Positions 1 to 48,076 of a DNA stretch of 54,777 nt are shown here, piece after piece. Position 1 is the first letter of the stretch; each line of letters begins with the position of its first letter. A program made the position numbers and the translations under genes. The notes under the pieces were generated by a model, which was not told the DNA's origin, did no database searches, and saw only the letters and a list, made by a program, of their open reading frames with translations. The DNA lies in IMG/VR virus record IMGVR_UViG_3300031688_000022, positions 1 to 54,777 of that record; one strand, given 5' to 3'. Source of the DNA: a virus.

Positions 1-152
1 CCTGTATCAAAAGATATTTGACCACTCATATAAAGGGTCAAGTTAGATTGGTTAACCCATCACACTGGAGTGTAGTGTCCATGTTACCAACTGCACAATT
101 TAAGAAATTTAACGTTAACACGGTGTACGCCGACAGCAGGAAACAATTCTAA
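1..152 (+). CDS. C-terminal end of a tail/baseplate-region protein (5' truncated)
   Basis: An open frame (codons starting at base 3) enters from the left edge and stops with TAA at 150-152, giving the last 49 residues of a protein. The TAA overlaps the ATG of the tail tube-like gene (TAATG), so the two are translationally coupled. No domain can be recognised in so short a tail. Its position suggests a tail or baseplate protein, perhaps a gp48-like tube cap, but that is inference only. Confidence 0.6.
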   Translation, partial: CIKRYLTTHIKGQVRLVNPSHWSVVSMLPTAQFKKFNVNTVYADSRKQF

Positions 153-865
153 TGGCAAGTATAGACGAAATCAAATACAATTTTGACACTGGTGCAAGAG
201 CAAATATGTTCTCTGTATCCATTCATTGTCCCAAACTCTTTGGTACAGCCATTGACGCTCTTAGAGTAGAGACATGTTCTTTACCAGGCCGTAAACTCGA
301 AACCCAAGCTTGGTCTGAATATGGAATGACTAGAAATCTTCCAAACGGTGTAGTAACAGACGATGGTGGTGAAATGACAATGTCATTCATTTGTGATACA
401 TCTTTTGCAGATCGGTTCATCATTGAAGCATGGCAGAGTGAGATATACGGTGGTGCTGGAGTAGATGTTGAAAGGGGTAATAGTATACACCCTATTATGA
501 AGTTCTACAACGATTATATTGGAACAGTGCATATCAATACCTTAAGAAAGGATGATAAGACCTCACTGGAGTACACTATACATGAAGCATATCCAGTCTC
601 CTTTGAGAAGATGGAGTTATCTACTGAGTCTGCAGATATATTAAAATTTTCAGTGACATTCAATTTTAGAACATGGGAAAGCAAGTATGTTCCTGCACCT
701 AAGTTGTCTGCACTAAATAAAGGTAGAAGAGTATTAGATGCTCTTCAAGAAGGACTAAAAGTGGGTTCACGATTTAATAAGAAGTCAAAAAAATTCTTAG
801 ATAAGGTGAACAAACTAGACGGTACTGCCACAAGGTTACAAACACTCCTTGGTGGCAATGGTTAA
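152..865 (+). CDS. Tail tube / baseplate tube-initiator protein (gp19/gp54-like)
   Basis: A 237-residue protein with the look of the T4 tail-tube fold: a short N-terminal helix (IDEIKYNF), a beta-rich region with a 'SLPGRKLET' turn near residues 43-51, and a C-terminal strand ending near 'FNFRTWESKY'. A basic helical tail follows. In T4 phages this fold makes the inner tube (gp19) and its initiator (gp54). The length exceeds T4 gp19 (163 aa) and falls short of gp54 (320 aa), so which one it is stays open. It is followed 19 bp later by gp26 and then gp51, a baseplate-hub context that slightly favours the gp54 role. Confidence 0.65.
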   Translation: MASIDEIKYNFDTGARANMFSVSIHCPKLFGTAIDALRVETCSLPGRKLETQAWSEYGMTRNLPNGVVTDDGGEMTMSFICDTSFADRFIIEAWQSEIYGGAGVDVERGNSIHPIMKFYNDYIGTVHINTLRKDDKTSLEYTIHEAYPVSFEKMELSTESADILKFSVTFNFRTWESKYVPAPKLSALNKGRRVLDALQEGLKVGSRFNKKSKKFLDKVNKLDGTATRLQTLLGGNG

Positions 866-884
866 TTACAATATGGAGTAGATT

Positions 885-1589
885 ATGGGATTACCAATCC
901 AAAAAGCACCTAAGTTTAAGTGCGAATTAAGTGGAGGAAAGGTCGTTGAATACAGGCCATTTCTTGTTAAAGAACAGAAGTATTTATTGATTGCAAAAGA
1001 GAGTGAAGATAACTTAGAAATTCTCGAAGCAATTAAACAGTTGGTTACAGCAGTTACAGACGGAAAAGTAAATTCCGATGAACTACCAATATTTGATTTA
1101 GAGTATTTATTTTTACAGATACGAGCTAAGTCGGTAGGAGAATCGGTTACGATTTCTCTTTACTGCAGAGAGACGGATTGTAATGGAAGTGGTTCAACAA
1201 GTGTAGACTTGAGTACTGTGGAAGTTGCAGAAGCTGTTGTTGTTGATAACAGGTTTGAATTGAATGAGACACTAGGTGTTACTCTTCGATTCCCAACCAC
1301 TCGACAACTTGCTATGGTTGACCAAAAGAAAGATGATGGGGATAAGATAATTGAACTGTTGAAATTCGGAATTGAAAGCATCTATGATGAAGAATCCGTA
1401 TATGAAGCAAACGATATATCTGATACTGAGATAGTGGAGTTTATTGAAAACTTAACACTAGACCAGTTAGAATTGTTAAGTGGGTATTTTGAAAGTATCC
1501 CTACTATTCAAAAAGAAGTAGAGTTTAAATGTGACAGCTGTGGTCAACAACAGTCGTCAATACTGAAAGGACTAGCTAGTTTTTTTTAA
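885..1589 (+). CDS. 26: Baseplate hub assembly protein gp26-like
   Basis: A 234-residue protein matching the T4 gp26 family: N-terminal 'PKFKCELSGGKVVEYRPFLVKEQKYLLIA', a central acidic segment, and a C-terminal Cys-x2-Cys (CDSC) near residue 217. In T4, gp26 helps assemble the central baseplate hub and acts with gp51 and gp28. The ATG at 885 follows GGAG. The last sense codons are AGT TTT TTT before TAA, a T run that reads as a classical -1 slippery heptamer, so part of translation may continue into the gp51 frame (see 1580-1610). The family call comes from motif memory, not a search. Confidence 0.8.
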   Translation: MGLPIQKAPKFKCELSGGKVVEYRPFLVKEQKYLLIAKESEDNLEILEAIKQLVTAVTDGKVNSDELPIFDLEYLFLQIRAKSVGESVTISLYCRETDCNGSGSTSVDLSTVEVAEAVVVDNRFELNETLGVTLRFPTTRQLAMVDQKKDDGDKIIELLKFGIESIYDEESVYEANDISDTEIVEFIENLTLDQLELLSGYFESIPTIQKEVEFKCDSCGQQQSSILKGLASFF

Positions 1590-1610
1590 TAGCTCTTTCC
1601 CATGAAAGCT
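1580..1610 (+). promoter_or_regulatory. Putative -1 programmed frameshift site joining gp26 to gp51
   Basis: The gp26 frame reads AGT TTT TTT TAA, so T TTT TTT (1580-1586) is a canonical X XXY YYZ slippery heptamer directly before the stop. A bulged hairpin follows at 1591-1610: AG/CT plus CTTTC/GAAAG around a CCAT loop, four bases after the heptamer. After a -1 slip the frame runs open from 1586 straight into the gp51 coding sequence. No ribosome-binding site or ATG lies before the conserved start of gp51. The arrangement resembles the G/GT chaperone frameshift of lambda-like phages. Confidence 0.55.
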
Positions 1611-1612
1611 TG

Positions 1613-1774
1613 GTGAATTATTATAACACCAACTTCCAGTTAATGCAACATCATAAGTATTCATTAACAGAGTTGGATAATATGATGCCTTGGGAAAGAG
1701 AGATATATATGAGTCTTCTCCTACAATGGTTGGAAGAAGAAGCAGAACGACAGAAGGAACGGAATAGAACCTAG
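1613..1774 (+). CDS. 51: Baseplate hub assembly catalyst gp51-like (start uncertain)
   Basis: This frame encodes 'VNYYNTNFQLMQHHKYS', then 'MMPWEREIYMSLLLQW' and a charged tail, the pattern of the small T4 gp51 hub-assembly protein. Counted from GTG 1613 it has 53 residues. In-frame alternatives are TTG 1610 and ATG 1643, but the latter loses the conserved N-terminus. None has a convincing ribosome-binding site. The frame is open upstream to 1586, where a -1 shift in gp26 would enter it and make a fusion of about 296 residues. It sits between gp26 and the membrane/tape-measure genes. Confidence 0.7.
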   Translation: MNYYNTNFQLMQHHKYSLTELDNMMPWEREIYMSLLLQWLEEEAERQKERNRT

Positions 1775-1839: not shown

Positions 1840-2223
1840 ATGACGGAAGAAAAAGAAGACCATTCGAGTAACGAAGTCGAGATAGACTTAGATAAGTACA
1901 TGGCACTTATCGAGAAACTGGATGAACAAGAAGATACAATTAAGGAGATGAAAGAGGATGCTATCAAGGCACGGAATCAGCTTGCTCCCCCTAAACGAAA
2001 GTTTATGGATTTGTTCTTAGACGATAATGACATTAATGAAAAGGCAATCATCGGGTTTATCTCGTTTTTCTTAATGACAGTATTTGGACTAACCGACTTA
2101 ATAACTGCGTTAGCATTTGATATGGACTTAAAGGTATCTGAGACTATCTACACATCATTCGTTGTAGTAACACTAGGTGCATTCGGAATATCAGAAGCTG
2201 GTAAAGCTTTTGGTGGAAAATAA
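1840..2223 (+). CDS. Small acidic coiled-coil protein with two membrane helices
   Basis: 127 residues. The first 60 are highly charged and predicted coiled coil ('LIEKLDEQEDTIKEMKEDA'). Two hydrophobic helices follow at roughly 68-88 and 98-118, and the end is Gly/Lys rich. The ATG follows AGAGGATTAG. It lies between gp51 and the tape-measure-like gene, so it probably belongs to the tail operon, perhaps as a membrane-penetrating tail component. A holin role is possible from topology, but the long charged N-terminus and the location argue against it. I do not recognise a family. Confidence 0.7.
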   Translation: MTEEKEDHSSNEVEIDLDKYMALIEKLDEQEDTIKEMKEDAIKARNQLAPPKRKFMDLFLDDNDINEKAIIGFISFFLMTVFGLTDLITALAFDMDLKVSETIYTSFVVVTLGAFGISEAGKAFGGK

Positions 2224-2236
2224 ATAAGAGAAAGAA

Positions 2237-4321
2237 ATGGCCACTTCGGAAGACAAAAGACTACAAGCTAAACGAGAAGCAGACTCTGCTAAAAATTTAG
2301 CAGCTGCAGCTAAGCAAAGGAAAGCAAACGAAGAAGTTACTGAGGCAACGAAACCCTTATCCAATTCATTAAAAAATCTTGTGGAGAAGATGGGGTCTAC
2401 TGATAAACAACTTCAAGTAACTGTTGCAGGATTGTTAGCAAATGGTAAGGAAAGTTTTAGTAGTGCCTTAGCTGCAAGGAAAGTAACGCAAGCTTGGAAG
2501 GCCATTAATAGTGACGGAGAGATGCAAAAGCAACAAGGTCTTAAAGCTCAAGCCAATGCAGCTATTGAAGCATCATTAGAGGCACAAGAAAAACTACTTC
2601 AAGATCAGAACACGGCCGTGATATCTGCACGTGAGTCTAATGTAGAACTTGCCCGTCTACTTGGAGAGGACAAAGAGATAAGAGATAGGGAACAGAAACT
2701 AGTAGATGGTGGACTCGATGTAGTCGAAGCAAGACTAATAACCGAAAAGGAACTAGGACAGAACCTACAAGAAATAACAACAAAAGAACAATCCATACGA
2801 GACTTGTCCAATAGTGAAATTGAAAAACAAGTTAAAATCACCGAAGAACATACGGCGAATCTAGAAAAAGCAACCGATGCTGAAAACATTAGACGTGAAA
2901 AACTTAATGACGACTTAGTTGAGACCTCCAAAAGTGGGGGGTTCGACAAATTCACAGGAAGTATAAAAACTCTGACTGGTGGACTAATTGATATTGCAAC
3001 TCCCCTTGACGCTGCAACGAAACAGTTTAATGCAATGAAGGATTTAGGTTCATCTATTGCTGATGGGTTCGGAAAACTAAAAGGTGCTACCACTGGTGCG
3101 TTCAACTCTCTTGTTGGTGGTGCTGAAAACCAAGAAGATGCAAATGATTCTCTTGTAGAGTCTACCGATGAATCTACTAAAGGTATGATGAAGAATGCAG
3201 TCATACAGAGTTCAATCGGAGGGAAGTTAACTAAAATGTTAGCTGGTTTAACATTAGGCCTGGTCATGGTAATGGCAGGAATACTCCTACCCCTTATTGC
3301 TATTGGAGCTGCATTCTTTCTCATCAAAGAAGCATTAGAAAGATTTGAATTTGCAGGTGTTGGTGCTGGAATTAAACAGGGTTTTAAATCTATCGGTACA
3401 ATGTTAAAGAGCTCAGGAAAGTTAATCAGTAGTGGTATGGCAACAGTCAGAAAAGGATTGGGACTTAAACCGAAGAATGCAGTACCGAAAGTAACAGACC
3501 CTACAAAACCAAAAGTACAACTACGTCAACCAAAAGGGGCAATAGACCCTAAGACTGGTAAGGCCATTGGCGGTCAGTTTATAAAAGAAGGTGATGGAGT
3601 CATCAAGGAAGTGGCTAAGGTTGCAACCAAATCTTCAGGGTTCTTTGGTGGTCTCAAGGCATTAGCAAAAGGTGTTGTTAAGAAACTTCCTATAATCGGG
3701 GCAGCCGTAGAAACTGGTATGGATGGATTTGATCAGTTTGATAAGATGGGTGACCTAGAAGAAGCTCGTAAAAACGGAACTCTAATGAAGAAGGATGACA
3801 AGACTGGTGAAGAACGTGAGTACACGGATGAAGAGTTCGAAGGATTAAAGAGTGCATTTAAAGCAAACTTAGCTGGTTCAGTTGGTAAAGGTACTGGTGC
3901 ATTAGCAGGTGCAACAACTGGAGCTGCAGCTGGAGCTGCATTGGGTAGTGTTGTCCCAGTTGTTGGAACCTTTATTGGTGGAATACTGGGAGCAGTCATC
4001 GGTGGATATCTAGGTGGAAAAGCAGGAGATGCTATTGCTACTGGGTCAGCTGAAATGATTATGGATGGTGAGGGTAACTCTCAAAAGATTCTAGATGATG
4101 CAGCTGCAAGTATTAAGAAGGTTGACCCCAACTCTGCAAAAGCTCTTGCCGATGGACAAGTTAATCTAGATGATCAGAAGCAGACTGCTACTCAAGTTGC
4201 CATGGCCAACACATCCAACGTGATCTCTCAGGATAGTAATTCGACTGTGATACAAAGTTACTCACAGAAGGCAAGTGATGGTGGTTCAACTGTAAATCTA
4301 TTGAACCCTATTCTTACTTAA
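2237..4321 (+). CDS. Tail tape-measure-like protein
   Basis: 694 residues. A long alpha-helical, Ala/Lys/Glu-rich N-terminal half (to about 240) is followed by a hydrophobic helix at about 335-365 ('LTLGLVMVMAGILLPLIAIG'). A basic linker comes next, then a Gly/Ala-zipper hydrophobic stretch near 550-600 ('GTGALAGATTGAAAGAALG'). This helix-then-membrane pattern, at the end of the tail operon, is that of tape-measure proteins, which set tail length and enter the host envelope. T4 gp29 (590 aa) is the functional counterpart, but I cannot show homology. Its stop overlaps the end of the convergent minus-strand gene at 4318-4321. Confidence 0.65.
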   Translation: MATSEDKRLQAKREADSAKNLAAAAKQRKANEEVTEATKPLSNSLKNLVEKMGSTDKQLQVTVAGLLANGKESFSSALAARKVTQAWKAINSDGEMQKQQGLKAQANAAIEASLEAQEKLLQDQNTAVISARESNVELARLLGEDKEIRDREQKLVDGGLDVVEARLITEKELGQNLQEITTKEQSIRDLSNSEIEKQVKITEEHTANLEKATDAENIRREKLNDDLVETSKSGGFDKFTGSIKTLTGGLIDIATPLDAATKQFNAMKDLGSSIADGFGKLKGATTGAFNSLVGGAENQEDANDSLVESTDESTKGMMKNAVIQSSIGGKLTKMLAGLTLGLVMVMAGILLPLIAIGAAFFLIKEALERFEFAGVGAGIKQGFKSIGTMLKSSGKLISSGMATVRKGLGLKPKNAVPKVTDPTKPKVQLRQPKGAIDPKTGKAIGGQFIKEGDGVIKEVAKVATKSSGFFGGLKALAKGVVKKLPIIGAAVETGMDGFDQFDKMGDLEEARKNGTLMKKDDKTGEEREYTDEEFEGLKSAFKANLAGSVGKGTGALAGATTGAAAGAALGSVVPVVGTFIGGILGAVIGGYLGGKAGDAIATGSAEMIMDGEGNSQKILDDAAASIKKVDPNSAKALADGQVNLDDQKQTATQVAMANTSNVISQDSNSTVIQSYSQKASDGGSTVNLLNPILT

Positions 4322-30988: not shown

Positions 30989-31078
30989 TGGCGGAAGATG
31001 AAGGATTCGAACCTTCGAAAGGTTTGACCCTTTGCTGGTTTTCAAGACCAGTGCATTCAACCGCTCTGCCAATCTTCC
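30989..31078 (-). tRNA. tRNA-Ser (anticodon TGA)
   Basis: 90 bases including encoded CCA. Acceptor GGAAGAT pairs with ATCTTCC; the anticodon arm is CTGGT-CTTGAAA-ACCAG with anticodon TGA. A long variable arm (about 14-18 bases with AAAGG/CCTTT) marks a class II tRNA, and the T arm is GAAGG-TTCGAAT-CCTTC. It reads UCA and would supplement the host for AT-rich phage codons. Confidence 0.92.
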
Positions 31079-48000: not shown

Positions 48001-48076
48001 TGGAGCCCCCAATCTGATTCGAACAGATCACCTACTGCTTACAAAGCAGTTGCTCTACCGAATGAGCTATGGGGGC
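48001..48076 (-). tRNA. tRNA-Thr (anticodon TGT)
   Basis: 76 bases with encoded CCA. Acceptor GCCCCCA/TGGGGGC, D arm with 'GCTCATTCGGTAGAGC', anticodon arm ACTGC-TTTGTAA-GCAGT (anticodon TGT), T arm ATCTG-TTCGAAT-CAGAT. It reads ACA. It lies between two probable structural genes. Confidence 0.93.

Follow-up and report, generated by a model that had tools for sequence, protein, structure and literature searches.

A predicted programmed −1 frameshift joining the gp26 and gp51 homologues of T4-like phages

The gp26–gp51 locus

The window analysed here is a whole IMG/VR record of 54,777 nt from a T4-like phage, which is probably a fragment and whose gp26 matches point to the Kyanoviridae and to pelagiphages. 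Both parts of the pair considered below, gp26 and a gp51 homologue that follows it in the −1 frame, give profile matches to the T4 gp26/gp51 family (PF12322, PHROG 150 and 634). The gp26 homologue is matched by Pfam PF12322 T4_baseplate (E = 8e-55) and PHROG 150 (E = 1e-57) and has its own Shine-Dalgarno (SD) sequence, with an anti-SD duplex of −5.9 kcal/mol; the gp51 homologue is matched by PHROG 634 (E = 8e-29) and also by the C-terminal columns 236–276 of PHROG 150 (Table 1). In a profile search of the 54.8-kb record PF12322 matched just once, and a second gene with a gp26-like domain fused to a gp51 tail, the Tevenvirinae arrangement, was not found in it. The minus strand of the window also carries tRNA-Ser(tga) at 30989–31078 and tRNA-Thr(tgt) at 48001–48076.

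The pair lies upstream of a probable tape-measure gene, with one small gene between. The assignment of the gene at 2237–4321 is probable, from its position and weak matches that include a partial match of its product to a PHROG tape-measure family; the HTVC008M counterpart is annotated as a putative tail tape measure. S-ShM2 and S-PM2 carry a very large gene directly after gp51. Pelagic T4-like phages besides the window also have a small gene between gp51 and the tape-measure position, and in HTVC008M and Melnitz-2 this gene occupies the place equivalent to window 1840–2223.

The predicted structure of gp26 has a pLDDT of 90. Compared with the PDB, the model gave no match below E = 0.04 and the matches obtained had a TM of about 0.1; a PDB sequence search with gp26 gave nothing usable, and the hits of a fold search among viral proteins were mostly baseplate proteins of the gp26 type and uncharacterised proteins of phages.

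Table 1. Features at and around the gp26–gp51 junction (window positions)
Feature	Position	Strand	Basis or remark
Tail tube family protein, upstream of gp26	152–865	+	PHROG 45 tail tube, E = 3e-24
gp26 homologue, putative short chaperone form (TAC-N), 234 aa	885–1589	+	Pfam PF12322, PHROG 150, own SD
SD-like element AAAGGA	1566–1571	+	GG ends 9 nt before heptamer; no start codon behind
Slippery heptamer T TTT TTT	1580–1586	+	Same phase and place in 119/119 loci
gp51 homologue in −1 frame, putative TAC-C, 62 codons and stop	1586–1774	+	PHROG 634, PHROG 150
gp26 stop codon TAA	1587–1589	+	Sequence; immediately 3′ of heptamer
Bulged hairpin of the earlier note	1591–1610	+	Overlaps 5′ arm of later hairpin; not generally conserved
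Downstream hairpin, stem 1603–1615 with 1627–1638, core TTGGTG/CACCAA	1603–1638	+	Conserved, register drifts
Internal ATG of gp51 frame (+63)	1643–1645	+	Conserved; start in some annotations; no SD
Small ORF, 127 aa, between gp51 and probable tape-measure gene	1840–2223	+	Sub-threshold VIT1-like match
Probable tape-measure protein, 694 aa	2237–4321	+	Position, weak matches

The heptamer and the −1 reading frame

The final codons of gp26 are AGT TTT TTT TAA, and the phase of the heptamer fits the pattern X XXY YYZ. An earlier note on this DNA, made from the window alone, had pointed to T TTT TTT directly before the gp26 stop, and it is indeed found there in the right phase. For comparison we used 103 IMG/VR loci, collected with gp26 or gp51 as queries, and 21 segments from named phages. 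T TTT TTN was present at the same codon and in the same phase in every one of the 119 related loci that gave a gp51 match, and in 101 of the 105 distinct loci the stop follows the heptamer after 0 or 3 nt. None of the six T's changes across 79 non-redundant loci, while neighbouring columns vary; given the amino acids, the probability that both wobble positions would be T throughout these 79 loci by chance is about 10^-27.5, a figure that ignores relatedness. The last codon position of the heptamer alters the residue (Phe or Leu) and leaves the T run unchanged, and of the 198 Phe-Phe or Phe-Leu pairs encoded elsewhere, in upstream codons of the gp26 frame, 12 have TTTTTT in that phase. The AT-rich window contains 19 T7 runs against 28 expected, so that such runs alone are not unusual and it is in position, phase and conservation that chance is exceeded.

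It could be argued that gp51 is a pseudogene, or that a sequencing error in the homopolymer has broken a single frame, since homopolymers are indel-prone and in one locus (L021) a single frame holds both gp26 and gp51, apparently through an indel. An identical break is, however, found in 119 loci, many of them independently sequenced isolate genomes, and purifying selection acts on both sides of it; these comparative data refute both explanations, to which we give next to no credence. L021 itself was rejected as a natural gp26–gp51 fusion: its TTTTTTC heptamer is intact and the frame changes at about 2185–2200, upstream of the heptamer, so that an indel introduced in sequencing or assembly seems likely.

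In the window, the −1 frame opens at 1580, after an in-frame TAG at 1577–1579, and closes at the TAG at 1772–1774; the product read after the slip would have 62 codons (LIALSHES...RNRT). Over the interval that separates the heptamer from the first conserved ATG (+63), pN/pS for close pairs is 0.17 in the −1 frame, and for the same stretch it is 1.82 and 1.13 in the other two. This interval is free of stops in the −1 frame (0/79), against 74/79 and 76/79 sequences with stops in the others. The comparison with relatives that had been proposed in the earlier note, for the heptamer and for an open −1 frame, thus came out in favour on both counts, and its reading of a frame open into gp51 holds from 1580 to 1774. 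At the protein level, homology and selection start immediately 3′ of the heptamer, 19 codons ahead of the +63 ATG.

Start signals for a separate gp51 are scarce. Before the ATG at 1643, the only start-like codons in the −1 frame of the window are TTG 1610 and GTG 1613, neither with an SD, and a start codon before +48 is present in 25 of 65 sequences, none of which (0/25) reaches anti-SD pairing of −4 kcal/mol or better, the level attained by gp26's own start in 89%. The +63 ATG, present in 66 of 80 sequences, has a median anti-SD duplex of +1.3 kcal/mol. Of the missing ATG and ribosome-binding site at the conserved start of gp51, first noticed in the window, the lack of a ribosome-binding site extends to the relatives, most of which also have no early start codon. 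With the −1 stretch under selection and gp51 devoid of start signals, the only visible entry into it is from gp26.

These observations also bear on the possibility that gp51 is made as a separate protein by translational coupling after gp26, from TTG 1610, GTG 1613 or ATG 1643. Some GenBank records (HTVC008M, Melnitz-2) start gp51 internally, the +63 ATG is widespread, and several relatives and most of the sampled Ackermannviridae have a TAATG overlap, in which the gp51 ATG lies on the gp26 stop; in the window this overlap is absent, the junction reading TTTTTTTTAATAG with no in-frame ATG before 1643. However, coupling does not fit selection and homology that begin at the heptamer rather than at the +63 ATG, earlier start codons that are confined to a minority of sequences and lack an SD, and a +63 ATG that is itself without an SD and lies just 3′ of a conserved hairpin, and it leaves the invariant T run and the SD-like element unexplained. 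We consider it improbable.

Elements flanking the heptamer

The purine-rich SD-like element upstream of the heptamer pairs as strongly as gp26's own SD, and a fitting ATG, GTG or TTG follows it in only 2 of 79 relatives. Compared with synonymous recoding, its anti-SD pairing gives Z = −8.7, with Z between 0.0 and 1.6 for three control stretches. Judged from sequence, a conserved element of this kind would be as expected for bacterial −1 frameshifting.

The same element helps to distinguish the ribosome from RNA polymerase as the agent of slippage. Polymerase slippage on the T run could yield some mRNAs with gp26 and gp51 in one frame, and a run of eight T's, as in the window, is present in 34 of 105 distinct loci. 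In 62 of the 105, however, there are only six T's, which is too short for efficient polymerase slippage, and the phase of the run together with the SD-like element indicates the ribosome; transcriptional slippage is thus highly improbable.

Downstream of the heptamer, the hairpin at 1603–1638 is supported over the relatives by Z = −12.9 and −17.4 against column-synonymous shuffles, which preserve every codon column and amino acid, and in the window alone by P of about 0.01 to 0.04. Overlapping coding windows give a background Z of about −2 to −5 in this test, so that we took the peak between +21 and +66 (−12 to −17) alone as signal. RNAalifold found no pair in 36 aligned junctions because the register of the stem drifts between sequences, and the energy tests on synonymous shuffles were used instead. 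The bulged hairpin at 1591–1610, to which the earlier note had drawn attention, can be drawn but is weak: against synonymous recoding its P is 0.17 to 0.27 in the window and in the identical locus L002, over 79 relatives its Z is −1.8, and it is strong mainly in some relatives with TTTTTTA (L063, L075, L078) and in P-HM1 (L109). The conserved structure is the later hairpin.

This later hairpin begins about 16–17 nt past the heptamer and lies just before the internal ATG. Usual frameshift stimulators sit 5–9 nt from the heptamer, and its part in frameshifting is uncertain at this greater distance. Tentatively, it may stimulate the slip at long range or serve as a lock against separate production of the gp51 domain, which would make the RNA of this module unusual. 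It is a possible new detail, and it poses a question about the tuning of bacterial −1 sites that can be tested.

Interpretation, distribution and comparison with known systems

On the sequence evidence, the locus is very probably a tail assembly chaperone pair with a programmed −1 frameshift, and a gp26–gp51 fusion is predicted. No reading other than frameshifting accommodates the conserved heptamer and the conserved SD-like element together with a −1 frame that is selected, free of stops and lacking start signals. The fusion of gp26 to gp51 suggested in the earlier note is, as a prediction, supported. Most ribosomes would end gp26 at the stop at 1587 and give the short form, while a minority, held by the SD-like site and tuned by downstream RNA structure, would shift back by one base at T TTT TTT, Phe-tRNA occupying both the P and A sites, and read gp51, yielding a minor gp26–gp51 fusion of 296 aa (TAC-NC). 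By analogy with lambda gpG/gpGT, coating of the tape-measure protein would fall to the gp26 part and recruitment of tail-tube subunits to the gp51 tail. The slipping, its rate and a role of the two products as chaperones are inferred.

The heptamer and an open −1 frame are present in S-ShM2, ACG-2014b, S-PM2, P-SSM4, P-HM1, S-CRM01, Mosig, HTVC008M, Melnitz-2, phiM7, Ahp1, Ps15, SH-Ab 15599 and R10Z, as well as in a Nitratidesulfovibrio phage record that carries no annotation; the arrangement thus spans named phages of Pelagibacter, Methylophilales, Prochlorococcus, Synechococcus, Sinorhizobium, Aeromonas, Stenotrophomonas, Acinetobacter and Vibrio. The extensions in Ps15 and SH-Ab 15599 are open, with no family match of their own in a profile search. 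In Vibrio phage R10Z (L120:3319-3337) and S-CRM01 (L121:2495-2510) the heptamer occurs together with a TAATG overlap, so that gp51 could be reached there by frameshifting as well as by coupled restart.

The heptamer is absent from T4, from Cronus and from the sampled Ackermannviridae-type phages YC, 1.255.O, D531 and selz. Gp51-like frames follow gp26 in −1 in the Ackermannviridae-type phages (L112:3211-3426, L114:3142-3339, L122:3058-3255 and L118:3220-3402) and are matched weakly by PHROG 634 in those searched (all but D531); three of the four have the TAATG overlap, and Salmonella phage selz (L118) has neither the overlap nor an ATG there. An ATG with a ribosome-binding site and no slippery run, the arrangement named in the earlier note as speaking against a frameshift, was not encountered across the Kyanoviridae and allied groups, and the run is absent only in sister groups with another arrangement (Ackermannviridae, Tevenvirinae).

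In the public records, gp51 is unannotated in ACG-2014b (L105:2505-2684) and starts at an internal ATG in HTVC008M (L107:3253-3390) and Melnitz-2, which look like errors caused by the frameshift. This suggests that gp51 is wrongly annotated (internal ATG) or missing in many cyanophage and pelagiphage records.

Many phages are known to use programmed ribosomal slips, and the idea of a gp26–gp51 frameshift is not new and was published in 2022: Vladimirov, Gautam and Davidson are said to have assigned genes 26 and 51 and to have described frameshifting in several T4-like groups. A later paper (PMC12846349), citing Vladimirov 2022, treats poly-T signals for −1 frameshifting in the TAC-N genes of T4-like phages as known, and PMC10885494 describes some T4-like phages with a short gene and a fused long gene instead. 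Relative to Vladimirov 2022, what may be new is the test of selection together with the SD-like element and the later hairpin; what is added here is quantitative support for the frameshift and two flanking elements.

The SD-like element resembles the known 5′ stimulator of E. coli dnaX, in which the heptamer is preceded, at about 10 nt, by an SD-like element and followed by a hairpin; the dnaX heptamer is A AAA AAG, its hairpin is nearer to the site and the gene is unrelated. The slippery sequence of lambda, G GGA AAG, is likewise unlike T TTT TTT. Lambda makes a short gpG and a −1 frameshifted long gpGT upstream of its tape-measure gene (PMC5009743), and the likeness to the present locus lies in the short and long forms and in the gene order; the lambda proteins have no sequence match to gp26, and the window phage is contractile-tailed. 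The G/GT design upstream of a tape-measure gene, recognised in the earlier note, therefore holds as adjacent genes before a probable tape-measure gene. In Vandenendeviridae and Andersonviridae, a tail chaperone frameshift with a GTTTTT motif and an open −1 frame has been described (PMC12846349), which is alike in that the short-chaperone gene ends in a T-rich −1 signal, although the families and the motif differ.

T4 gp26 and gp51 are classed as chaperones of hub assembly, gp51 being required but absent from the particle (PMC3004832), and the two genes have long been listed as encoding baseplate hub assembly proteins of unclear role. In T4 they are separate and divergent and the end of gene 26 has no heptamer, in contrast to the adjoining pair of the window; the statement that T4 lacks this frameshift is thereby borne out. 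T4 gp26 consists of the PF12322 domain alone, and T4 gp51 has the full PF12322 domain (aa 1–201, E = 8e-55) followed by the gp51 tail (PHROG 634), which is the architecture of the predicted gp26–gp51 fusion. With a gp26-like domain joined to the gp51 tail in gp51, T4 makes both forms from separate genes. Our results support the view that T4 genes 26 and 51 encode the short and long tail chaperones, and would place a very common marine phage group among the phages that set tail assembly by programmed frameshifting.
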